64,000 nucleotides of DNA from contig CAIIXF020000003.1 of assembly GCA_903813345.2 (NCBI GenBank), positions 20,662,931-20,726,930 on the forward strand, in the 5' to 3' direction. The notes under the pieces were generated by a model, which saw nothing but the letters and a program-made list of their open reading frames with translations, was not told the DNA's origin and made no database searches. This document shows, in pieces, positions 14,818 through 59,880 of this stretch; position 1 is the stretch's first letter; each line of letters opens with the position of its first letter. The stretch comes from Owenia fusiformis (taxonomy: Eukaryota; Annelida; Polychaeta; Sabellida; Oweniidae). Made by a program: the position numbers and the translations under genes.

Positions 14818-15002
14818 ACAGTTATTTTTTTTTTTAGTTTTTATGGTTTCTTTATTTTACTTTACAAAATTATCTACAAATGACAGGGCCGAGGCTGAAA
14901 TCAGCATTATTGGCCCTGTTAATACAAAGTTTATTCAAATTTACATAATAGCAACAAAATGACTACCAACATATATGTATGCATGGCAGGAATGTGTTAA
15001 AA

Positions 15003-17273
15003 CTATATAATTATATCAATGCATTCACACAAAAAGGATGTAAAATGCTTCAATATTGAAGAATTGCATGTTATGCTAACTCCATCTCTGCCATACATTA
15101 AGATATTCAGCTTTTGCTCTATAGAGCATCCTGTAAAGAAAATGTTCATTTCTGGCATGTTCCTGAGTTCCCCCCAAAGTTTCTCTCTTATAACATTCAA
15201 CAGAGGGCATTTGAAGATTAGATGCTTTGTAGTTTGTTGTTTAAAACCACAGATGCATTTGGGACTGTCAATACCTTGAAAATTATGTTGAAAAAGATGA
15301 CCAGTAAAAATGAAATCACATCTTGTTCTATTCAGTAAAATTTCTTCTTTTCTTGTAAGATCCAGGTTTGTGGTTGTTAAATGCTTCATTGTTCCTGAAT
15401 ATTTACGTAAATTGGTTTTGAAAGTGACTCTTGATGGTGCACTTTTTAGATAATTTGGAATGGCTTCCCATTCTCTTATGGCATTTATTATTGGTGACTT
15501 TTGTGAACGTGCAGTTAACTTTGGAATAGTGTATTCTCTTGATTTTCTCAAGTTAATATTATGTTGCTTATTTTGATAACTATCAAAAATTTTTTGAACA
15601 TAAGTTGGGACCAATTTCTGTCTAACATCATACATTAAACGTAAACGTTTCTCCTTTCTCCGCTCAGACAGGGTATTCCAATTTAGACATTTCAAAACCT
15701 TTACAGTAGATGTTCCATGAATGCAGCCACTTACTAATAATGCTGCCCTATAATGAACTTGGTCTAGTTTCATAATATTATACTTGGTAGATTTTTCAAA
15801 TAATATACTTCCATACTCTAAGTTTGGGAGAATAAATGATAGATACATCTTCTCTAGGTGTTTAGCTCGAATCTTGGTCTTAAGAACTTTCAATGGATTT
15901 AACATTATATTACATGCTTTTATGATATCCTGTAAATGGGCTTCAAAATTCAAATGCTCATCTAGAATGACTCCTAAGTGTTTATGAGTTCTGGTTCTAT
16001 TAATGACCTCATTTCCTAGGTAGAGGGGAGGGTATAAGAAATTGCACCTCCTTGAGCCTTTAAAAATCATATCTTGACTTTTAGAAGGTTTAAATTTAAG
16101 CTTCCATTTCTGTGACCATTCCCATAAATTATTTAAGTCAGCTTGTAAATGCTGGTTCTGTTCAATGATATTAGCTTTCCTATTAAATGGCATAAAGATT
16201 GAACTATCATCTGCATAAAGGTAAAGTTGACTATGATTTATGACTTCATGAAGGTCATTTATATATAACAGGAAGCAAAACGGCCCAATTATGGATCCCT
16301 GCGGCACGGAACTATTTATGAAGTATTCATTTGAGATTGCTGATAATTCTCCATTAGCTTTAACTTGAAGTCTACGATTGAAAAGATACGACTGCAAAAG
16401 TTGAGTTATAGTATCTGAAAAGCCATATGATTTAAGTTTTTTTATCAAAAGGAAATGCGGAACGGAATCAAACGCAGATTCTATATCAAGAAACACTCCT
16501 CTGACATCATGATTTTTGTCAATGTAATTGTCAATAAGATCAACAATCGTTAACAGTTGTTTTTCCGTACTATGTCCTGGAAGAAAACCAGACTGATTTT
16601 GATACATTAAGTTGTTGTCTTTAACATATTTAAACATGTTATTATAAATAATACGTTCTAGCAATTTAGAAACATTACTTAACAAGGTAACTGGTCTATA
16701 ATTTTTTGAATCACCCTTTGATCCTTTGTTTTTATATAAAGGTACTACAGTTCCCAATTTCCAACAGGTGGGAAAAACTTGTTTGTCTATTATTATCTTA
16801 AATATATCAAAAAGAGGTTGATCAATACTATCACAGCACATTTTTAACATTCTATTTGAAATGCCATCTGGCCCCCCTTGTTTTGAGACATCAAGACTTT
16901 GAATAAGTTTATTTATGTCTCCCTTAGTGAATTCAATTTTATCAAAAAGCATGTCAGTTTTCAAAGGTATTTCTGGTGATTGAGTTTCATCATAGTCATG
17001 ATGGAATTTAGATAAAAATTGATTAAGCAAAAAGTTTGCATTTTCTGAGCTGTTTTCAGCCACAATACCATTGTCAAAAGAGAGAAATGGTATGTCAGAA
17101 CAGAATTTTTTCCCAAGTAACTTTTTAATGGCAATCCAGTAAAATTTGTTATTAGATGTATGTGTTTCTAAATTATTGCAAACAGAATCTTGATAAGATT
17201 TCTTGGCTTTCTCAATAACCTCCTTAACAACAGACTCTTGTCTTTTGTATTGATCATAAATTACTGAATTTTT
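15003..17273 (-). pseudogene. LINE ORF2, reverse transcriptase half (frameshifted from the endonuclease half)
   Basis: An uninterrupted 756-codon frame. In order it has the RT fingers region (QGGPDGISNRMLK, NYRPVTLLSNVSKLLER), motif A with the first catalytic Asp (FLDIESAFDSVPH), motif B (SSVPQGSIIGPFCFLLYIND), the catalytic YADD box at 16207-16218, and motif D/thumb (HLGVILDEHLNFEAHL). The last ~100 residues contain a C-x-C...H...C zinc-knuckle-like segment (CICGF...HLIFKC). The enzyme would copy element RNA by target-primed reverse transcription. All catalytic residues remain. The frame opens only at 17273 because it is out of phase with the endonuclease frame, differing by one base in an A6 run at 17269-17274. 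Codon and base use match the rest of the element. Confidence 0.92.
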
Positions 17274-18730
17274 TCAACCTTAAATTTCCTGTATAACTTG
17301 TCCCGTTTGTTTATTGAGCTTTTGACTTCCCGTGTCAACCATGGCAAATCTTTAGAACGGATTATTTTAACTTTATTCGGAATATGAGTATTAAATATTG
17401 ATAAAATTGCCCTAGTAAAATTATCAACCATCTCATTTATATCTGAACAAGACATGATTTGTTTCCAGTCATACTGTGAAATTGCTCTATTCAAGTGAAA
17501 AACATTACAATCGCTACACTGCCAGATTATTCTTTCTGAAGTTAATTTTTCATTATGCCTACATATGTTCAATTTGCCAAATAAGCAACAATGATCTGAC
17601 CCAATTGGTGGTTTAACAGATGCTTCAAGTACATATCCAGGTGAATCACAGAAAAATAAATCTATGCATGAGCGGCTGTTTCGAACACACCTAGTTGGCT
17701 CATCGATCAATTGTGAATAAGAATGTTGTACTGAAATATCATACAATTTATTACCTTCGACCGAATTAACATCATCTACCCACCAATTTTTGCTTCGTGC
17801 GTTAAAGTCCCCTGTAAACATCACCAGGTCGATTTTTTGGGAGTTTGACACTTTTTTAAGATTTTCACTCAAGCAATTTAGATAATGTTCACGCGTTATA
17901 GGATTCTGAGAAGGTGAACGGTAAAAAGCACCAAATAAAATATTTTTCTGTTCAATACGAGCTTCAATCCAGAGACAATTTGTATCATTAGCATTTAAGT
18001 CATCCCGAACTTTAAATTTAATGGAATCTTTGACATAAATTATGATACCACGCCCAGATTTGTTATAAAGAGAGTCGTTTAATATATGAAAACCATCTAT
18101 GTTATATTTTGAAATGTCTAAATCAGTACCTGTCTCACAAAGGCCAGCAATAGATATGTTTTCTCTCTTAATAAATAGCTTTAAATTTTCGAATCGAATA
18201 CCATTGTCAGCAGATAAACTATTTATATTTGTAAACATTATATTCACATTCTCAAGCTGACTAAATGGACCTGGATTAGGTTTGACATCAAAAGCCACCA
18301 ATAGCAAACTCCTAAGTACATCTTGCTGAAATGCAAGATTTATATATAATGAACTTCCAGGAATAAGTAGCAAACAGCCCACAGAGAATGCAAAAACACT
18401 TAAGGATCTTGGATTAAGCTTGTGCTTGAAAGATGAGACAATAATTTTGATAATAATGCAAGGTATTGAAAGAATAGTTGCTACAAATAGCAAAAAGAAG
18501 GTTAAAACAAAATCCCAATGCCTGTATAATAATATGTAATGAATCAATAATAAAAGTTGAATTCCAAGCAAAATATCTTCAATTCGTATATTGACTTGTG
18601 TAATACTATACAATAAGTTGATTAATATCCCAATAAAAGATAATCTTCCTTTCTTTGATTGAGAGTGAGAAATCCCATGATTGTTAAATGCACCTATTCT
18701 TCCCCTCCATAAAGCTATTTCAATGCACAT
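17261..18730 (-). pseudogene. LINE ORF2, 5' half: hydrophobic leader, 2A-like motif, AP endonuclease
   Basis: The first ATG is at 18730, after an in-frame stop further upstream. Residues ~30-135 form about four hydrophobic stretches (for example IQLLLLIHYILLY, FVLTFFLLFVATILSI and VGCLLLIPGSSLYINLAF). They are followed by DVKPNPGP at 18265-18288, matching the 2A ribosome-skipping consensus D-V/I-E-x-N-P-G-P except Lys for Glu. The rest is an APE-type endonuclease: the N of FTNINSL, AGLCETG with the metal-binding Glu, YRSPSQNP, GDFNARSKNWW, SCIDLFFCD and the terminal GSDH signature. The frame ends at TAA 17261-17263, where the RT continues in another phase. It nicks target DNA in the life cycle of such elements. 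Confidence 0.88.
18265..18288 (-). other. 2A-like ribosome-skipping motif (DVKPNPGP)
   Basis: Encoded between the hydrophobic leader and the endonuclease. The upstream residues LLLVAF are hydrophobic, as in known 2A sequences. In active 2A peptides the Gly-Pro bond is not formed, so the leader would be released from the enzyme. The canonical Glu is Lys here, so activity is uncertain. Confidence 0.6.
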
Positions 18731-19728: not shown

Positions 19729-21960
19729 ATGTATATCGTCGCGTGAGAATAACTTTGTACTAACTGCCATTTTCAAAAAAATTGAGATAGACATGGAATT
19801 TTACTATTTGAAACATAGGCTTTCATCTCAGATACATGCCCCATCTCAATTCCCTCTCATTAAGCTAGAATTCAGTGTGAAATTGTACCATCTCCAGACA
19901 AACAGCTTATTTCTAATTTCAAATTGTCATATCTGATATCAACTGTTTCAACCAATCAACTCTCTAAGAATTGGTCATGTGACTTGTAAAACTTGGAGTT
20001 ATAACAATCTTATATTAAAACGAAGTATGCCAATATGCATGTTATTGTATCTAGAATGAAATAATGTTTTGTAACACAATACCATGCCAGTTTGCATGCC
20101 TGGCCTTTCATGTTTTAGTTTTAGAACTATTACAAGTAGATCAAAAAATAAAATGATACAGTATGTGTAATCCCATGCATATTCAAATTATATGCCCTCA
20201 ATTACTCTTTGTATTATGGATGCTCATCGGATTATTCATGGCCACATGATATGAAATAGAATTACTAATTTCCTCGAAAACCTAAATCCTTGCTACCAGG
20301 GAAGATGAAAAGTACAAATGACCAGTTAATTAGATCATGTGAGCAGTCAAAAGTACCCTTTATCTTCCCTGCTACCAGGTCTTATAGGGGTTTGAATGGC
20401 CAAATGCAATAGAAATGCATATACGAAGCTGTCATCATTAAATATTGGAAATGAAAGACTACTTATTTGTTTCTTCAAATAGAGTACATAATAATAGGTT
20501 ATATACTCGATATAGTAATCAAAACAAATAGTAACTGTCATATTTTGCACTACATTGCTCAAAGGCAATCACTGTCTGTATACTATTGAAATCTCTTTCA
20601 AAATGATGTTTTATAGTTTGTGGAAAAAAGCTAAATCTATTTTAACTAGCTTTAACTTTTACTGACCATACACTTTATCAATAAGGAGTTATCTTTATGT
20701 TAGTATAGTCCCTTAAAACACTTATTTTATTTTTTCTTCATCTATGATTTACTTTGCGCTTTTCACTGAACATCTGGGATCTTTTTATTAGTTATTTTAT
20801 TACTAGTATGTTTTTCAGATTTGTCCTTTCTTTTGCATTTTTGGGATCATTGTTTTTAGATCATCTACATTTTATTTTGGAAAAGTAACAAATTGGTTCA
20901 ATTTCTTTACAAAGAGCCACTCTTAGTCTCCACTTCTACAATTGCTTCAATTCCCAATTGTACTCCACAGAGTAGCAAACAACAGAAAATGAATGGATAA
21001 TGATAGCTGCATCCCAATGAACAAAATGTGATTACCTAAATCGAGGCTTCATCACTTTCATTAATCTAAAATGAATTAGAAATTATTTTTCTATTTTCAA
21101 ATTTTTTCCATGTGCATGTAATAAAAATTGGTTATGTCTTAAGCCCTAAGGATCTGAAACCTGGTGGTCAAAATGGAATTACGGACCAGTTGCAATGTTA
21201 TTCTCCTATACCCAGTGAAAAAATCAACTGGTCTGTATCAAAAATAACCTGATAATGACCAGCGGACCCTTAGGGGCTACATTGTAATGTGCTGGGAGGT
21301 TTAGGCTACAGGGTTTATACCGAGGGAAATATGTGGGGGACCGTATTGGCATCATTGGTTTCAATGCATTGTACTTCTGCCTTAGTTTCAAAGGCAATAA
21401 ATTCTTTTTGAAGGGTGTCCTGAGATTCCAAAATTAAGAAATAATTGTACTTATTTGAGAAATTAATTTTAAAGTTTTATAAATTGAATTTTCTTTATTT
21501 TATTAAATAATATTCTTTGGTTTTTGAAGATTTTTTACAAAGCAAAACATTATTTTTCATTCTAGATACAATAACATGCATATTGGCATACTTTGTTTTA
21601 ATATAAGATTGTTATAACTCCAAGTTTTGCAAGTCACATGACCAATTCTTAGAGAGTTGATTGGTTGAAACAGTTGATATCAGATATGACAATTTGAAAT
21701 TAGAAATAAGCTGTTATTCCGGTGGGAAATTGTATCAACTCCATTTCCATAGTTTTAAAAAAGGATCTTGTAAATTGTTTCAAGGTATGATATTTCATAT
21801 AAGATATCTCTAGGGTGAGACCAGGTGACATACAAAAAATCAAGTTTCACATAGCAATACTAAGTAAGATACAGACCTCTAAACTTTCAAACCTTGATTT
21901 CTCAGTTCCGTAAAAATGTGAGATAGTACAAAGTTATTCTCATGCGACGATATGTAGATA
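19729..21960. mobile_element. 2.2-kb long-TIR element with 10-bp target duplication (MULE-like)
   Basis: Exact direct repeats TATATCCTGT lie at 19719-19728 and 21961-21970. Inside, inverted arms share CGTCGC(G/A)TGAGAATAACTTTGTACTA at the ends, and a long inner block (19905-20070 against 21541-21715) matches at high identity. The outer parts of the arms have diverged or been replaced (about 110 bp on the left, about 200 bp on the right). Long TIRs with a 9-10-bp duplication are typical of Mutator-like elements, so that superfamily is the best guess. There is no transposase frame. A hairpin with arms TACCAGGGAAGAT/ATCTTCCCTGCTACC sits at about 20293-20383. Confidence 0.7.
21142..21278. repeat. 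Small hairpin element inside the 2.2-kb element
   Basis: The ends AGCCCTAAGGATC and GACCCTTAGGGGCT pair, followed inward by CTGGTGGTCA / TGACCAG. The span of 137 bp suggests a minimal MITE. No target duplication could be fixed. Confidence 0.45.
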
Positions 21961-22132: not shown

Positions 22133-22749
22133 TTAAGCTTCATTGAATAAATTGACTCCAATGGAATCAGTGATCTTGAATTCTTTAACCCTACCGTCTT
22201 TGTTCTTAGCAAAGATCTTGCCATTAGAAGACCAAGTTTGTTGAACTTCCTCATTTTGTTTCAAGTCGTACATAAGTTTTCTGTTGAGCGGGCTAAGATC
22301 CTCGTAAACCACAACTCCTGACTGCTTCAAACGTTTCTTGTTGCGAATAACTTCTTCCTTCTTTGGTCGGAATTTCATTTTAGCGATAATGGGGCGTGGC
22401 TTGTTTCCTGTAGAGCGTCCCACTCTGTGACTAACCTCAATGTCATCAGGCACTAGGGAAATTTGCATTTTTGCTGACAATGTGGTAGATATAAGTTGAG
22501 AACAATTCTCATTTTGGGTCTCGGGAATACCCAGTACACGAATAGTATTCTTGCGACTGTATTGTGCATTATGGTTACAGCTATCTAATAGGGACATAAC
22601 TGTTCCCCTTGTGGCAATGCTACCCTGCTCAAGTGATAATACTCTCTGTTTTAGTTCCAAGTTCTCTTTCTCTAGGTGCGATACCCTACCCATAATATTC
22701 TCGATTGCATCACCCACAGCCGTGGTGACAATTGACCTGAGATCCTTCT
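22133..22749 (-). pseudogene. LINE ORF1, C-terminal part (coiled coil plus RRM-like domain)
   Basis: It begins at the TIR-element junction. The first residues form a heptad-rich coiled coil (NIMGRVSHLEKENLELKQRV). An RRM-like/L1 ORF1p core follows, with RKNTIRVLGIPE, DDIEVSHRVGR, RPIIAKMKFRPKKEEV and VVVYEDLSPLNRKLMYDL, ending at TAA 22133-22135. In the L1 ORF1p family this protein trimerises and coats the element RNA. The other half lies at 25987-26272. If the inserted element and one TA are removed, the halves are one base out of frame, so a further indel has occurred. Confidence 0.85.
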
Positions 22750-23103
22750 TAGTGGGGGGAATTTACCCCTATCTTAGGCAGAATATTTCAGATGGTGATA
22801 CAAGTATAAACTTTGGCTTTTCTGCTTGTTAAAACCTTTTTCTAAAAATCTGTCCCTGTGATCGACGGAATATTTCACTTCTTCCCCCCAAAATCCAAGA
22901 TGGCCGACAAAGTATGACTTAAATAACATGTAGGGTGGGCAAATTTTTTTATCTTTGGAAAATGCATGCTCTAATGGTGAAATGTTGTTCTTTAAGGTGA
23001 AAATAGTCATGTGAATTTTTTTCAAATTTTTAAACTGAATTTTAGCCCTCTCCAATGGCCCCAAAGTGTGACGATTTGACGTAAAATCGGAAATAATGTT
23101 CAT

Positions 23104-24486
23104 TTTCTAGGTTCAAATAAAGAATGCAATGACAAATAACATTAATTATTATTTAAAAAACATCTAATAACTTTGCCTGATACTACAATATGAAGATTTC
23201 AATTATTGGAAAATTGAAAGTATTTTTTAAAAAGCGTTGAAAGTGCCCTACCCCATAAAATTGGAAAAGGGAAGTTGTGGTCAATTTTATCATTTTGTAG
23301 GATTAAGTTAGAAACGTGTATCAACAGAAAACAAATAAGTATATTCAGACCATCTTCAAAGGTAACTGGATATTATAATATGATTATTATAACCATATAG
23401 GACACAACATATTTTATATATGTGTATGATTATATGTTTATGTAGTACATGTATCACTATGTAATGTAATGTAATCATAAAATAGAGAGGTTGCTATGAT
23501 TTCATCAGAGTATGATTAGACATGTTTATCTCTATGTTTAGAGCTGTAGTATACAACATACACACATAACACATAATACTGTTATGAGCTCAAGTCAAAA
23601 TAAATAATTAGGAGTCAAGCAAGGTTCATTCCTGACACCCTCATTATTTTGTATACTCACAAATTGGTACAATGGATACTCTATTTAATTTAATGAATTT
23701 AACATCATTGGTACTACTGTTCTATAATTAGGAATATACATTCACTAATTAACAACAAAATCAGTTTTTAAAAGTCATTATTACATAGGAGCTGTTAAGG
23801 TTCACTTTTGACACCCTTCTTATTCTTTACACTTACAAATGCACTAATTTACAACAAAATCAATTTGTGTAAATTGCCAAAACAACTGAAGTTGCCAAAA
23901 CCACATTGAGTACTGAGTGAGTTTTTGCAGATTTATCAATGTATTTACCATGTTTTACAACTACAACACCATTACTTTGACAGCAAGAAAATAATTGCAG
24001 AATTTTGACGTGAGTTTAAACAATGGAGTATCATTGCTTGTGGCACTATTGTCCTTCAGGTTTTGTTGTGATTAGCAGCTTTAGTCTTTTTGTCAGTTTA
24101 ATTTCCATTTTTTCTGCTTCTACCCCTAAAGCTGCATACAAACTCAGAGAGGTTGGAAAACAGGTTGATCAAACCTCACTCAGTTATTCAGCCAGCTCTG
24201 CACAATGCAGCCATAGTCATCATTTTTCTGTTTGGCCTATTTCTAAGAGAGCCTTGTTCCACTCCATTGCTGTAACTCCAGCAGAATTTAACAGCCAGGA
24301 AAGGAACTCTCATATTGTTCTGATGTGATGATAATCAAGTCAATTGGGCAATAAAGGAGTCTCATTGTAATAGTCATAACAATTAGTCACCTTCCAATCT
24401 GTTGCCTGAATCACATATGTTGCTTTAGGACTCTTTAGGCAGTTTGGAGTACTTGTGACAATTGGGTCAATATGTTGGATGTTCTT
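23104..24486. other. Interior of the 3.2-kb element, no intact gene
   Basis: AT-rich sequence with two loosely repeated stretches. A phrase near 23625 (GTTCATTCCTGACACCCTCATTATT) recurs diverged near 23800, followed in both by a CACTAATT-AACAACAAAATCA phrase. The strand opposite the 24023-24328 frame may be the downstream end of the RT debris but is too broken to assign. Confidence 0.4.
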
Positions 24487-25065
24487 TTAGGCCATCCTGC
24501 CTTGCCTAGTTGGTTGGGTAAGTTTTGTGTCATTTAGTGTTCTATAAGGAAATGACAGGGAGCTTCCAGGAGACTGCAACATTTGATATGATTCCCAGGT
24601 TACTAGGTTTTTTAGTTCAGTGAAGATACACAGAATGGCTATTTCAGTGTCATTTGCTAGAGTGACCCCATCAATCCATGAAAATGTGATACTAGTATGT
24701 TGGATGTGGGTTACCATTTCTCATTTTAAATTCATTGCACTCCTTGTGGCTCCTTTCAGAAGGATGTTCATAGCTGTCATGAATAGTAATATGCAGCCTG
24801 CCGTGATTCCCAACTCTAAAGGCTGCCAACCAGTGGTGATTGTTTCAGTCAAGAATCTCAACTGAATACCTTCAAGGTGCTCTATCTCAAGGCCAATCAC
24901 ATGTTGAGGAACATTATAATGCTTCAAAGCTGTTGAGTTCATTAGTGTGGTACACTTCTGCCTTCGTTATATCAAGCCATACAATTGGCAAGTTGGTTTT
25001 GTGTTGCTTTGTTTCTGCTATTAGCTGTGTTATAGCTGCAACATCACTTGGCCTTTACTGTTGAC
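24487..25065 (-). pseudogene. Reverse transcriptase fragment of a second retroelement
   Basis: Three pieces in shifted frames, read in order on the minus strand, give an RT palm. Piece one is QLIAETKQHKTNLPIVWLDI, with the motif A Asp in WLD. Piece two is LKHYNVPQHVIGL followed by TTGWQPLELGITAGC, the region of motif B. Piece three is WIDGVTLANDTEIAI, in the position of the YxDD box but reading IDG. This resembles a divergent RT family I know from cnidarian and mollusc genome predictions (pattern WLDLANAYGS ... WQPLEVGIAMGC ... MDDVT). Frameshifts and loss of the second Asp show it is dead. It belongs to a lineage different from the surrounding LINE. Confidence 0.7.
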
Positions 25066-25986
25066 CTCACTGTACACAACTCGGCACGGGGCTCTAAACC
25101 CAGCAAGTCTCTAGACATGTTTTTACTTGCTTTTGTAAAAAATCTGTACTTAAATGTACAGTTTTGTGCAATTCCACATGTAATTCTGTATAATTGATAA
25201 GTTCTTGTCTACCTGCCCTTATTTCATCATACTATCAAGAGATTGTGATAATAATGGACTAAGGTATAACCTTGGAAGACTACTTCAATGTTTGCATTGA
25301 TACTTGGTTGACAATATTCTCATTCAAACTTGAAATATATTCTTGAATTATGTCTTAGATATTAAATGTATTAGAGAATGTTATGATGAGAGGGCCAAAA
25401 TAGAACCTTGAAGAACTCCTATAAAACTCTTTTTGCCAGAAAATAAGATCATACCATTTCTAATGTCTTAGTACCGAGTGAACCTATTTTTTAACCATAT
25501 TATCTCTATGTATGAATCTAAATTGTCATTTTTACCGAATTATGTACATATTTTGACAACCTTAAATTTTTAACTGAATTGGTATTGGTGAAATATCAAC
25601 ATTATTCAAGAAAACAAGTTTAATGACTAAAGTTGTTGCAAAATAAGAGTGCTCCCAAAATAGAACCTTGTAGAATCCCTATATAAAGTCATTTTGCCCA
25701 AATTCAGCTCATTAATGAATGTAACTGTATTTCTAGATATAATGTACAGGCTTTAGGACTGAATCAATATAATTTTAAACCATATTTATCTTTATATATG
25801 AATCTAGAGTGTCATTTGTATTGAATTACACATATACGGCAGCCATCTTGAATTTTTTCCTGAAATAGTGTTCAGTTTGATCGATCACAGGGACAGAATT
25901 TTTTCAAATAGTTTAAATAACAGATTAAGCCAATAAATTTGCTTGTATCACCATTTGAAATATTTTCCACTAAATTCCCCCCACTA

Positions 25987-26272
25987 TCTGTATATTTGAG
26001 ACTTCTAGGGACATTTTAGACATGAAATCCTGCATGCTGTTTTGTAAGGCTTGAACAGAACTTGTTGGTGTACCATCTTGGGATACAAAACTATCAAAAC
26101 TCGATTCAAATCTGTCCCTTTTAGCTGGGGGCATCATAGATGCTTTAGAGGATGACACTGGGGTACTACTCACAGTTACGATACTTGCAGCTTCTGTACA
26201 TATATCAGAAGGTTGCGACTTCAACTGCACATGTGCCTCAGTCAAAAAATCCTTTATGTTTTGCTGACTCAT
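25987..26272 (-). pseudogene. LINE ORF1, N-terminal part
   Basis: ATG at 26272 in a good context (GCCACTATGAG), then MSQQNIKDFLTEAHVQLK and a Ser/Thr/Pro-rich stretch, ending at the 3.2-kb element near SLEVSNIQI. Low-complexity N-termini ahead of the coiled coil are common in L1-type ORF1 proteins. It is truncated by the insertion. Confidence 0.75.
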
Positions 26273-26447
26273 AGTGGCTCCAATGTTCAATATAGTGTTC
26301 CAAAATGTTCAATAATATGTGCCTGTATAGTTTATAGTAATGATATATCCATATATATGTGTGTATCCACTGTAAGTCCTGAGTAAATTAATAAAATAGT
26401 GGACCAAAATATTATTTTACTTTAGCTGGCGGCCATCTTGCACGGTC

Positions 26448-44041: not shown

Positions 44042-45425
44042 TCAAGTACATTTGGCATTAGCAGTTTTGGGACGTTTCTTGGCAGATTTAAGTCTTTTCT
44101 TTTTGCCATTTTGTCCCGCTTTTTCAAGCTTGGTTAAATCTGTGAGGGAATGTCTCCTTTGCGAGAAGTAACTTTTATGTGGAACAACTAGTGCACGACC
44201 ACTTGGACGCTTTGATCCTGTGTTTGAAACGGAGCTCTTGGCAGTGTTTGGGCGACTTGTACCACCACGGTTAGGATCTAAATCCAGTTTTTCAAGCTCT
44301 TTCTCTATATCCGCATGTATAGGTGTGTTGGGCCTCGGTCGTAAATCCTTTGTTGAAGGGACGCTACGTTGACCCGTCGAGTATGTGGCATGTCCGGATT
44401 TTGGACGGCCGAGGATAACCCTATTGGCGTTAATACGCTTAGCATTGCTATTGCTACGTTTACAACTATTGCATGACGATGGCCTGGGTTTTCGTGATGA
44501 TTTGGCATCCTCTTCAGTACCCTCAGCCCGACTGTGGAACTCATAGTTTGTATTAACACATTTCCCATCACAGTATTTTTGAAAACAATGAACACATTGA
44601 TTCGAAGTTGCTCGTTTTACTGGACAGTCTCCTACGCAAGATAATTGCACACATCTTGGACAGCATTTCCTATCCTTTGGTTTTGTGCTTATTGGTCGGA
44701 CACCTTTAGAAAGTTTGTAATCACTGCGTTTTTGTTTGATTGCATTTCTTATTCTCTCTCGACGAGCTCTTTCCCATTCTTCGGTCTCTACTTGTAGCTT
44801 TTCAAGGAGGACTATCCGGTCAATAATTTTTTCATCTTCTTTGATGGGGGGTCGTAACTTCGTTTGATCCCGCCAATCAAATTCTATTTGACTGATCTCC
44901 CGATAGTCCAATCTATTTAATTCGATGGGTAACGCTGAGGTAAATTCATATGGAGGAATTTCTAAACGCATGGCATCGAAGTCGAATTTGCGTGGGTCCT
45001 TTAATCCTTGCGCTAAACAGAATGAATCTAAGATTTCAGGTCTAAGTTTCAAATCTGGAATATTTGAGTTTTTAATTATGGGTGGCTCTTCGTCATTTTC
45101 ATTGTCAGACATATCACTAGCGCTGATTCTACTGAGACCACTATCGTAATCACTGTCGCGTCCAGAGGATTTCAAAGATTGGGAAGTAAAGTGATTCTTA
45201 TCACCATAAAGGCACATTGATTTGTTCAATGTTTCATCATCCTCGTCAGCTAATTCATAGACGATTTTGGGGGACAGAGTATCGTACTCGCCACGTTTTA
45301 GAGACTCGTTGGTCTGTGTCATAGGCTGTGGTATCGCCGAATGTGGTCTCGTTCTCGCGAGAGTTTCTCTCGATGACAAAGCTCGCTCGCCTATTGGTAC
45401 GTATTGCGCACATGCAGTCTTTGGC
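44042..45425 (-). CDS. Exon 6 (last coding exon), large gene
   Basis: It follows acceptor TATTTTGTACTTTCAG. One base completes an Arg codon, then PKTACAQYVPIGERALSS leads into 460 codons in all. It holds the acidic segment, the charged helix, the cysteine cluster and the basic R-P-rich tail, and stops at 44042. Confidence 0.85.
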
Positions 45426-48400
45426 CTGAAAGTACAAAATATACTATAAAAGGTTGTATCGAAAACACAAAAAATAGAACAGCTATTTGATCAGTTGTAC
45501 ATGCATGAGTTTCGGATAATGAAAAATTGGCGGTAATTTGGTCTGATTTGTCACACTTCCCCCACCCAGCAAAAACTATCGTCTTCACAAAATAAATATT
45601 GTCACAATTAATACGATCATTTATTTTGTACGTTTGAACACGGCCAATATTTCCGAACTCAAATTATAAATACAGACAAATTGGCACATGCACTTCTCGA
45701 CTCATTGCGTGCATACTGTTCTCTAGCTACCTTTGCCTCCCCGTAGAACTAACGTATTTTCCAAGATTCGACACAGAAAGTGCGTATGAAGACTTTTTAC
45801 GTGGTGTGGTAAGTAGCAAAGGTGTTCCTGTGATCTGAATTTTCTCCAATGGCATCATTGTGTACGAGAACGACATATAAAGATCCTGCATCCTCGAACA
45901 AGAAATTCGTGTATTTGTAGGCCTATTCTACGTTGACTGGTACAAATTGAAAGGGAGCCTTATAACGTATCTGGCCATGGGCTGATGTAATTCAATCATG
46001 TTTCGTTTAGTTATTACATGTTTCGTCCAATATTCAAATTACAAGTTGTTAGAAGAAAAGTATTCAAATGCTGAGTCTATTTTTCTTATATTGAACAGCT
46101 ATTTCCAATGCCAGGTCGATTTGTCGCATCTTCTTTGTTAGTTGTTTGCCATTGAATTGTGTGATCTGCGGCTGATTTTATTATTGTATTTTCGTTGACT
46201 GATCAATCTTAGCTATTGACTGTGTTACTTCCTATATCATTTTAATTGTTGCTTAACCTCATTGGGTTTGTCCATGTCAAGTATTTTCTTCGCTACGTGT
46301 GCAATGTTCAACTATTTATATCCTTCTAAATATTTTATCTTGCTTATTGGAAGGTTTAGAACTTCCACATGTATTATTAATAAGATGCCTTTAAGTATTG
46401 TTCCAATAGGTTACTGTTATTAGTTATAACCATATCAAGCCTAGTAGTTCGAAGCCAATATTTCAATAAAGATGTCTTAATAGAATTAATGTCATATTAC
46501 CCCAGGTCTAGTCGATGAAAATGATTTCTTAGGCAATTATATTCTTAATGCTAGTTTCTCAGTAAAAATAATAACCTAAATGTCAGTTCTATCTTCGAAT
46601 TGCATAAAATAATATCATTGGCTTTGATCGTTAAATATCGCTTACAGAAATCGCTAAAATGATTGTTGTGTCCGATATTATACGTTATTACAGTTTCCAG
46701 TTCCTGTAAGTTCCAAGGAGGATTGGCTCCCAGAGTGCACCACCGATATTCTGTCCCATATATGGGTATGTCGTAATACAAAATTCGAATTCAAACAGCC
46801 GCCATTTTGTTCACTTCAACATTTAAATCGTGAATTTTGGTCTTATTTCCAAACGAAAAATTCCAAAACTCACAAGAAATGATCGAAATATTGGTTCGAA
46901 TCTTTTGAACTGTTTATTTTGAATTTATAGTCGGTTTTAATTTCAGAAAATAACGACATTTCGACGTTTTCATTGTTGGAAAATATCGAGTTTCGATCCT
47001 GGGAGCCAATCCTCCTTGTGTAAGTTCATAATCCATTGTTAAGCTTTAATTAATCAATATATGAGGTCTATTGTGTAACAACCATTCAAATTGAAACATA
47101 TTGGTTCATTTGTCTGATAATGAAACTACGCAATCTTCTGTAATTATTTCAACTGAAATAATACATTAATTAAATAGTACGAGTATCTTGTATTAGGTCC
47201 TCGGGTCCTTGTTACGTTATATCCAGTAAATATCCAGTTTCCCTGTCGATATATCGTTGTTTGATGTTTGCCGATTGATGATGACTGTTGATTGATGAAT
47301 TTTGATTGATGATTTGACTACGCTTTTTAACACATGCTCGATTTCTCCAATCTTGTATATTTTAATTCACGATCACTTTCATCATTGTGACATCGAAACC
47401 GAGAATAAAGTTCCAGCAATATTAGTTTTCTTTCATATTACTTTTGAAATTATTATGAAATGAAAATAGTAATATGACGTGCACGAACCTGGGGACAATT
47501 CGGGAAATACGGGCTAATCTCAGCTTTAATCGTTAATATCTGCCTTATTTAAAAAGCTAACTATATGCATTATATATCATTTTGAAGTATTTTTTATTCG
47601 CATTTCACTGAAATTATTTTTCCTTAAAAAGTGTGATGGGATCTACCATATTTTTTAAGTTAAATGTACTCCGACATCGTCAAATACGCTGTAAGGCGTA
47701 ACATTTCACGCTTACACGGTTCGTTGAAATCAGGATAACTTTTGAAATACTGATCAGAATTTTACTAAAATTTCATATTTTATTCATTGAAACATGTGCT
47801 TTTATGACGTCACAATTGCCTAGCGGCTACAGTTCAAATCGTCTTATATGAACGCTTTTAAGATTTTCAAAATTGTGTAAGGTTTTGAAGGCGAGGGAGA
47901 CAAGCAATAAGTTCACCTTTATTTAACCTTCTAATTTAGGTCTGATTTCAAAAAAAATTTAACTGCACAATATTGTCATGGCGAAATTTACAAAACAATA
48001 ACCGATTTCTTTATTTTTCAAATAATAAGAGAATAAGAGTTGCTTTTAGAGACTTGAAAAAATGTAACGCATCGATTTTTTACCACAAATACCATACATA
48101 TCAATTTTTACTAACGCCCCGAGTGGATTTCCTGACCGTTTTTCAAAAATCAAAAACATTTTAGAAATATTGTCCTCGAGATCTTCTTGCTCTGTGAATT
48201 TCACCAGGATTGAATAAGAATAAAGCATCTTATTTTTAGGTTGACTAAACTTGACAAAATGTAACGCTTGCCTTTTTTACGTTATAATGCTGATTGCGCC
48301 CTATACTGGCCATTGTATTGTTTTGGTATTTTGACGCCATAATGTTACTCTAATTGTCCCCAGTTTCGTGCGACGTGTATAACAGGTTCACAACGAAACG

Positions 48401-59000: not shown

Positions 59001-59880
59001 GAATAGAATAGAATATTTATTGAGTACATTCACACCCCTGAGGGTCAGGTACAAGAAAGTGCAGTACACAAAAAGAATATATATGATTTAACACTAGACT
59101 ACTATATACTACATATAATATATGCTTACTACTGTAAAATATGTATTACTACAAAATGCTTTTTTGCGCAGCAGGAATTAGCCTTTCTAAATTAAGTATT
59201 GCTTTCTAAAATTCGGAAGGCATCACTAATATATTTTGCAACCTTGATGCAATCTTGATTTATACAAGTTAAGAGGTATATAAATTGATTTGTTTGTGCT
59301 TTTGCCGTATCAGACAATTCAGTTTGAAGTAATAATCTTTCATTTTGATATTTTTTACACTTCATCATAAAATGTTCTTCATCATCAATAATATTGCAAT
59401 GGACACACAGTCTTTCTTCAATTGGGGTTTTCTTTGGTTTAGTATATCTCCCTTGCTCAATTTGGAGGTTGTGAGCACTTATTCTCAAACGTGTAAAGTT
59501 TCTTCGCATATCAAGTCTGTCGATTATATTTAAATAATGTTCATATTTAAAATCTTTCTTGAGGGTTCTGTAGGTTCGTAGTTTATTGCCGTTATCATTT
59601 TTCCTAGTGTCAGTGTTTAATTTATTCTTCCAGTACCTGTCAAATTTTAGTTTAAGTAATGATGTACATCTTAAGGTATCAATTGTAGAATCCACAGATT
59701 CAGAGCAATTTTCATTAATAGAGCAAATTATTTTGTTTACGTTTGAAACCCATGAGTTTTCTTCTAGTTCTTTGGAGCAGTCAAAAGCTGCCTTGATTAG
59801 AACATTTTTTGTATCTTTAATGTGATGTAAAAAGTTGAGAATGTATATGTTAATGTAACTGCTTTCAAATGTTTTTTTCT
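59001..59880 (-). mobile_element. 5'-truncated LINE copy ending in a pentamer repeat
   Basis: The 3' end on the minus strand reads GTACTCAATAAATATTCTAT followed by TCTATTC units, i.e. (ATTCT)n at 59001-59017. This is the non-poly(A) tail style of CR1/L2-group elements. The 5' end is truncated within ORF2 near 59880. Confidence 0.75.
59192..59870 (-). pseudogene. C-terminal end of a LINE ORF2
   Basis: About 226 codons, all downstream of the catalytic palm. They contain LRTYRTLKKDFKYEHYLNII, RRNFTRLRISAHNLQIEQGRY and a CCHC-like LCVHCNIIDDEEHFMMKCKK. This combination is the C-terminal region of CR1/jockey-group RT proteins. Sequence and tail type show it is unrelated to the 15-kb LINE. The frame is intact over this span, so the copy may be relatively young. 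Confidence 0.8.

Follow-up and report, generated by a model that had tools for sequence, protein, structure and literature searches.

The first residues of a LINE second open reading frame (ORF2) in the annelid Owenia fusiformis raise the question of whether a retrotransposon can place a membrane protein of its own in front of its enzyme, and of what such a protein would do. The window, as the whole stretch of DNA analysed is called here, comprises 64,000 nucleotides of contig CAIIXF020000003.1 (assembly GCA_903813345.2, positions 20,662,931 to 20,726,930 of the forward strand), and all coordinates below are positions in it. A sequence-only reading of the window had described an ORF2 of APE type that opens with about four hydrophobic stretches and passes directly into a 2A-like (StopGo) motif. 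It had also noted that Lys replaces the usual Glu of that motif, so that the skip might be weak and membrane-tethered and free enzyme might be made side by side.

The ORF2 of the window copy consists of two frames of the minus strand, which run from stop to stop over 18781-17261 (506 aa) and then over 17273-15003 (756 aa) (Table 1). The first matches the Pfam families Exo_endo_phos_2 (3.7e-13) and Exo_endo_phos (1.2e-7), and the second matches RVT_1 (1.2e-32). The leader has its first Met at 18730 and closes at 18269 with residue 154, the Gly of NPG, and the Pro that would follow the skip is encoded by 18268-18266; the limits originally proposed for the leader agree with this start and with this codon. 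Frames, Pfam matches and span predictions likewise bear out the description of the ORF2 of an APE-type LINE in which a hydrophobic leader with several predicted spans stands directly before a 2A-like motif. The window copy itself is defective, with its ORF2 split over two frames, its ORF1-like pieces lying apart and a stretch with inverted repeats between the ORFs. The distance from ORF1 to ORF2 is 3.4 kb in this copy versus 0.8-1.4 kb in seven other copies, and about 3.2 kb of other sequence (22763-25969) parts the two ORF1-like pieces. A copy on another contig, 99.5% identical to the window over 2.4 kb, holds a single frame of 1259 aa, and the match between the two ends 333 nt upstream of the leader start. 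Two further open frames of the minus strand were observed elsewhere in the window. One of 482 aa (44042-45490) has a FAM217 match above the Pfam cut-off (1.2e-8) and is probably a host gene exon; the other, of 228 aa (59192-59878), has a Cys/His-rich end that resembles by eye the C-terminal end of a LINE ORF2 and gave no Pfam match at 0.1.

Table 1. Location of the parts of the LINE copy in the window
Feature	Position	Strand	Basis or remark
Leader, 154 aa, Met to Gly of NPG, first part of ORF2	18269..18730	-	Frames and genome relatives
N-terminal motif WRGRIGAFN, seven codons after ATG	18683..18709	-	Family form W/Y-R-x-x-I/V-G-x-F
Predicted span 1	18521..18589 (aa 48-70)	-	delta-G -1.02
Predicted span 2	18443..18511 (aa 74-96)	-	delta-G -2.48
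Predicted span 3, marginal	18341..18409 (aa 108-130)	-	delta-G +0.08
StopGo/2A-like core DVKPNPGP	18266..18289	-	Predicted skip between Gly and last Pro
APE-type endonuclease domain	17591..18229	-	Pfam PF03372 and PF14529
Second ORF2 frame with reverse transcriptase	15003..17273	-	RVT_1 at about 16718-16035
ORF1 C-terminal piece: coiled coil, then L1-ORF1p-like region	22133..22762	-	Four-ORF1 profile versus LINE-1 ORF1p, 3e-4
ORF1 probable N-terminal piece	25970..26308	-	Like L071 ORF1 start: 34% over 67 aa, E 8e-7 (one comparison)
Probable later insertion (probably DNA element), long inverted repeats, between ORF1 and ORF2	19733..21953	.	Arms 168 nt (97%) and 41 nt (90%)
3' untranslated end into A-rich stretch	14833..15003	-	Homology with two other copies stops at 14833 and 14838

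The nature of the element follows from its domains and its ends. PF14529, PF03372 and PF00078 are all above the Pfam cut-off in ORF2, that is, the APE endonuclease and the reverse transcriptase (RT) of a non-LTR retrotransposon. The 5' break lies 333 nt before the leader start in one of two other copies of the window's subfamily and 506 nt before it in the other; both, the two examined, end A-rich and have direct repeats at their flanks (10 and 12 bp). The element is an APE-type LINE, with the features of 5' truncation, A-rich end and target-site duplication present in these two copies. Among the few LINE RTs in the PDB, the best match of the RT is of LINE-1 ORF2p type, a match that leaves the clade undecided. 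An L1-like ORF1 lies upstream of ORF2 in the window, and inspection by eye recognised one in seven of the 12 upstream stretches that were fetched; the other five comprise a 5'-truncated copy of the window's subfamily (L072) and four stretches without a frame of at least 110 aa. A profile built from four of these ORF1s matches LINE-1 ORF1p chains (3e-4), and Pfam Transposase_22 appeared at 0.17, below cut-off, in one of the four only. Type-II ORF1s, with coiled coil, RRM and CTD, are described in the CR1 and L2 subgroups of Jockey-superfamily LINEs (PMC4120745), and the ORF1 found here would be type-II in the classes of that paper. The idea that the leader substitutes for ORF1 was ruled out by this separate L1-ORF1p-like frame upstream, in the window and in the seven stretches.

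The window's own genome was searched with the leader and the start of the endonuclease, and 150 of 260 candidates were scored. At least 147 matches were obtained, many of them in open frames of more than 1200 aa. Among 60 loci that were read, one is without the core motif and 12 failed the N-terminal pattern through point changes, internal stops or 5'-truncated leaders, leaving 47. From these, 29 representatives were picked by hand and joined by seven of 20 copies selected through their endonuclease, which gives the 36 subfamilies treated here. All share one plan. The start lies seven codons before the motif W/Y-R-x-x-I/V-G-x-F. A basic arm is followed by two closely spaced spans, a loop that is again basic and, usually, one more span; a short leucine-rich tail then leads into the StopGo/2A-like core, and the endonuclease comes directly after. 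The leaders measure 135-160 residues (154 aa in the window) and are 20-69% identical between subfamilies, with R9 and G13 of the N-terminal motif invariant in the 29 aligned leaders. In a subset of 35 pieces the motif is present in 29 and missing in six (L034, L035, L055, L058, L059, L060).

The 36 subfamilies were taken by the N-terminal motif pattern, so the frequency of the motif among them is not independent evidence; closer to such evidence are the copies selected by the endonuclease. A search with the endonuclease only (150 scored of 796 candidates) supplied 20 copies with long frames (1142-1278 aa) that were absent from the first list. The core is present in 20/20 and the whole leader in 18/20, and the two copies without the N-terminal part of the leader have the shortest frames (1142 and 1190 aa). 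In those 18 leaders three spans are predicted in 14, two in three and one in the remaining leader. A predicted membrane leader followed by a 2A-like core is a trait of a large, diverged LINE family. Relatives that lack the leader, or carry it decayed, had been named beforehand as the outcome that would speak against it; what was found is a leader that recurs, intact and under selection.

The comparison of related copies, which the sequence-only reading had proposed, did reveal purifying selection on the leader, with dN/dS well below 1 in the informative pairs. The three most informative pairs give leader values of 0.39 (L032/L042, bootstrap 0.22-0.63), 0.22 (L040/L048, 0.12-0.35) and 0.28 (L038/L045, 0.11-0.68), and the endonuclease values of the same pairs are, in this order, 0.09, 0.09 and 0.13. 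The leaders of the window and L006 give 0.42 (0.17-0.69). Over all 11 pairs, nine leader values lie at 0.22-0.60 and two are zero solely through silent-site saturation, with the endonuclease at 0.00-0.36; the endonuclease value is below that of the leader in eight of the 11, and hence the leader evolves faster. The leader value of L015/L018, a pair with few changes, is not significant (interval 0.04-1.28). Very young pairs show no constraint (L017/L021 3.09, L032/L037 1.28, with few changes each), as expected after insertion. From the recurring plan, the copies chosen by their endonuclease and the dN/dS of 0.22-0.39, it follows that the leader is a selected part of the protein, constrained though faster-evolving than the endonuclease.

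Membrane spans were predicted with the Hessa/von Heijne delta-G scale at a threshold of delta-G <0.5, and Kyte-Doolittle windows served as a second measure. Both give the same spans in the window leader, and the earlier count of about four hydrophobic stretches has to be lowered to about three, the third being marginal. Across the 36 subfamilies three spans are predicted in 26, two in seven and one in three, with span 3 marginal in several. Chance hydrophobicity of AT-rich DNA was ruled out as the whole explanation by the rest of the first frame (336 aa), which is free of spans at a nearly equal GC (0.32, leader 0.31), and by the other five frames of the leader DNA, four of which lack spans altogether and one of which has a single weak span; in the RT frame (756 aa) there is no span either. 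The count alone is not beyond chance, since shuffles of the window leader reach the observed two strong spans in 27% of 300 trials. Over the family the mean is 2.66 spans per leader versus 1.39 in shuffled sequences (29 leaders), and the average hydropathy profile over the 29 subfamilies has an SD of 0.87 versus a mean of 0.18 and a maximum of 0.32 in rotation controls (n=200), so that the placing of the hydrophobic stretches along the leader does exceed chance.

Topology was considered in 28 leaders with three placeable spans, for which the threshold was relaxed to delta-G 1.5 where needed and L042 was dropped. The mean number of Lys plus Arg is 5.2 in the N-terminal arm, 0.4 in the loop between spans 1 and 2, 2.2 in the loop between spans 2 and 3 and 0.5 in the tail, and the charge bias places the N-terminus inside in 28/28 leaders, or in 20/28 when the arm is not counted. 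The topology prediction suggested for this leader therefore returns a multi-span protein with its N-terminus inside and usually three spans; judged by these models, the leader is probably an integral membrane protein with a positive-inside bias. Structure prediction of the window leader alone is all helical (pLDDT 60, pTM 0.35), too poor for a fold search. Pfam searches of the 29 leaders returned six families, each in one member only and at best with E 0.0015, which were taken as chance. A leader profile gave five matches in the PDB, all to membrane proteins (best E 0.0017); some of the five match only or also at the 2A end, and there the match is probably due to left-over 2A tags. Seven matches to the leader pattern in viral contigs included no relative.

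What would such a protein do? We lean, with moderate confidence, towards a reading in which the leader is a small membrane protein encoded by the LINE, made as the first product of ORF2, that docks the LINE RNA at the ER or nuclear envelope, and in which StopGo frees the enzyme. The ribosome would first make the basic N-terminal arm with its WRxxIGxF motif and then spans 1 and 2, upon which SRP would dock the ribosome on the ER or the nuclear envelope, together with the LINE RNA that it carries. Then, 80-107 residues past span 1, the nascent StopGo sequence would free the leader at NPG with span 3 still in the exit tunnel, and the same ribosome would continue to yield a free endonuclease-RT (EN-RT) beside its own RNA at the membrane. 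The distances bear on this order of events. In the 28 leaders span 1 ends 80-107 residues and span 3 ends 9-29 residues before the skip site, so that at the skip spans 1 and 2 would be outside the ribosome and span 3 would be still within the tunnel. A conserved leader and a likely skip signal before the enzyme suggest, as far as sequence can tell, that these elements are translated at a membrane of the cell, from which their retrotransposition may benefit. Least secure in this order of events are whether StopGo works in the Lys lineage, whether span 3 inserts and what the element gains.

The release step depends on the core. Its expected form is (D/G/C/N)(V/I)ExNPGP or that of a variant of established activity; the window has K14. 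In the 36 subfamilies p12 is D in 35 and G in one, p14 is E in 19, H in 14, K in two and Q in one (L053), p16 is N in 31 and H in five, and p19 is P in 34 and Q in two. P at p17 and G at p18, both demanded by the search pattern, occur in 29/29 representatives. Natural HPGP cores were seen in L027, L054, L076 and L080-L083, and NPGQ cores in L029 and L039. E14Q mutants are, in other systems, 56% or 26% active, and K14 and Q19 are absent from the active variants named in the StopGo sections of the same paper (PMC12846837). The two Q19 subfamilies may have lost StopGo.

Several cores depart from the usual form (K14 plus F11 in the lineage of the window, Q14 in L053, Q19 in L029 and L039), and these departures could also be taken as purposeful. 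StopGo would then be deliberately incomplete, and a tethered fusion of leader and EN-RT would be made together with free EN-RT, both being used; the 2A signal sequences of sea-urchin NLR genes offer a precedent (PMC4981915). A mixture in which some enzyme is tethered and some free is just one of the options, and a use of both forms by design seems unlikely to us. H at p14 or p16 is >95% active in natural contexts (PMC12846837), and the subfamilies with H14 (14/36) and H16 (5/36) match those variants, which supports StopGo in the family and in many sisters of the window's subfamily; the LLLLSG-like upstream class that the paper names for StopGo points the same way. Moreover, if all three spans insert with the N-terminus inside, an enzyme left unskipped would end in the ER lumen, a point in favour of efficient skipping. 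Without insertion of span 3, the unskipped fusion would be a tethered enzyme on the cytosolic side.

As to the Lys itself, the endonuclease tree unites the two Lys subfamilies (window and L006) in one clade (100/98) whose nearest relatives have Glu, and Lys at p14 arose once and was kept afterwards. Weak skipping from this Lys is possible, as had been supposed, and activity could be lower in the Lys lineage because Phe stands at p11 in addition to K14; the other 27 representatives have Gly or Asn there. K14 and F11 occur together in this lineage and only there among the 29, and one might go further and propose that its motif no longer skips and that the fused leader anchors EN-RT to the membrane. 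That appears quite improbable in view of the octapeptide, which between the window and L006 differs by three silent changes and a V/I exchange only. It has been kept while silent sites came near saturation (pS 0.62 in the leader, 0.82 in the endonuclease), and this argues that the core of the Lys lineage still does something.

Another reading would retain StopGo and dispense with the membrane: the leader would be hydrophobic only as a nascent-chain context for StopGo, or by its composition, and would be degraded after release. It is known that StopGo makes use of upstream sequence rich in leucine, the LLLLSG-like class being one that has been named (PMC12846837); composition by itself still yields one to two spans in shuffled leaders. 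We nevertheless rate this reading as very unlikely, given that some 140 residues separate the conserved N-terminal motif from the core, a distance too great for a role in StopGo only, and given the conserved span positions, the charge bias and a dN/dS well below 1.

The reading that we favour has the leader translated from its own start, and the start codon varies within the family. A codon other than ATG occupies the conserved position in 10/36 subfamilies, several of them multi-copy: GCA in L017 and L019-L021, AGG in L029 and L039, CGG in L030 and L031, ATA in L036, L038, L045 and L047, GGC in L049, L050 and L075, AAG in L053, and GGT in L054, L076 and L077. Another in-frame ATG lies nearby upstream or two codons before the motif in L038, L039 and L049, and one codon earlier in L076; six of the 29 representatives have no in-frame ATG from the upstream stop to the WR motif. 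Splicing could account for the start codons that are missing, but inspection by eye found no consistent acceptor. A noncoding motif, GGNATNGGNTAA or GGTATNGG, is present within 30 nt before the ORF2 start in 10/36 subfamilies (L017, L033, L040, L042, L048, L052, L053, L076, L083, L087) versus 0.14 on average, and never more than 3, over 1000 mononucleotide shuffles; the motif had first been noticed in these same sequences, so that the comparison is not blind. That the leader is normally untranslated, with EN-RT starting further down and the upstream frame a leftover, would accord with the subfamilies that lack an ATG but is extremely improbable, since 22 of the 29 representatives have no Met between the skip site and the endonuclease motif, so that the enzyme frame needs the start of the leader, and since the leader dN/dS is below 1.

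Among the closest known systems are the APE-type non-LTR retrotransposons of Odon 2013 (cited in PMC4981915), in which 2A-like sequences are reportedly linked with one-ORF elements. These LINEs are similar in that their EN-RT frame reportedly carries a 2A-like core near its N-terminus, and differ from the present family, which has a separate ORF1 and, before the core, a multi-span leader of 135-160 residues with a motif of its own. Among the titles and abstract openings listed by full-text searches none reports a membrane leader in a LINE ORF2, a mention in Odon 2013, Luke 2014 or Rao 2025 being possible. For elements with an ORF1 of their own, a LINE ORF2 headed by a conserved multi-span leader that bears its own motif is apparently new. 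In Jockey-superfamily LINEs ORF2 can begin with additional domains (PHD), but the word transmembrane does not occur in the main text of the paper that describes them, nor such a leader in its Table 1 (PMC4120745).

Membranes have already been proposed in LINE biology (PMC3905857, PMC5478143). The ORF1 esterase of the CR1/L2 element ZfL2-1 binds membranes, and its authors argue for membranes in LINE retrotransposition; unlike the leader described here, it is a peripheral lipid-binding enzyme in ORF1 and not an integral leader of ORF2 (PMC3905857). The location of the L1 particle in the cell and its route to the nucleus are open (PMC5478143). If the reading favoured here is true, a multi-span membrane protein encoded by a LINE would make the location of the LINE particle and its route to the nucleus testable. 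The wider picture, a whole LINE clade with its own integral membrane protein, SRP anchoring before the enzyme is made, insertion coupled to release and assembly of the particle in cis at the nuclear membrane, is possible but doubtful; in it StopGo would sit just after the last span, and pull on spans 1 and 2 may help to set the rate of skipping. The placing of a retrotransposon RNA at the ER during translation, proposed here, is known from Ty1, whose RNA is docked at the ER by SRP; Ty1 differs in being an LTR element with a translocated Gag, and StopGo does not figure in the abstract of that study (PMC3945221).

The family also adds natural diversity to StopGo-like cores, with H, K or Q at p14, H at p16 and Q at p19. 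In sea-urchin NLR genes the 2A signal sequence is an N-terminal signal peptide of about 26 aa in a host immune gene, and it resembles the LINE leader in that a hydrophobic targeting part at the N-terminus closes with a StopGo core (PMC4981915). The LINE leader, unlike that short signal peptide, has about 150 residues and several spans (154 aa and about three predicted spans in the window). A leader of this kind would link StopGo in LINEs with 2A signal sequences, two themes that have been treated separately.
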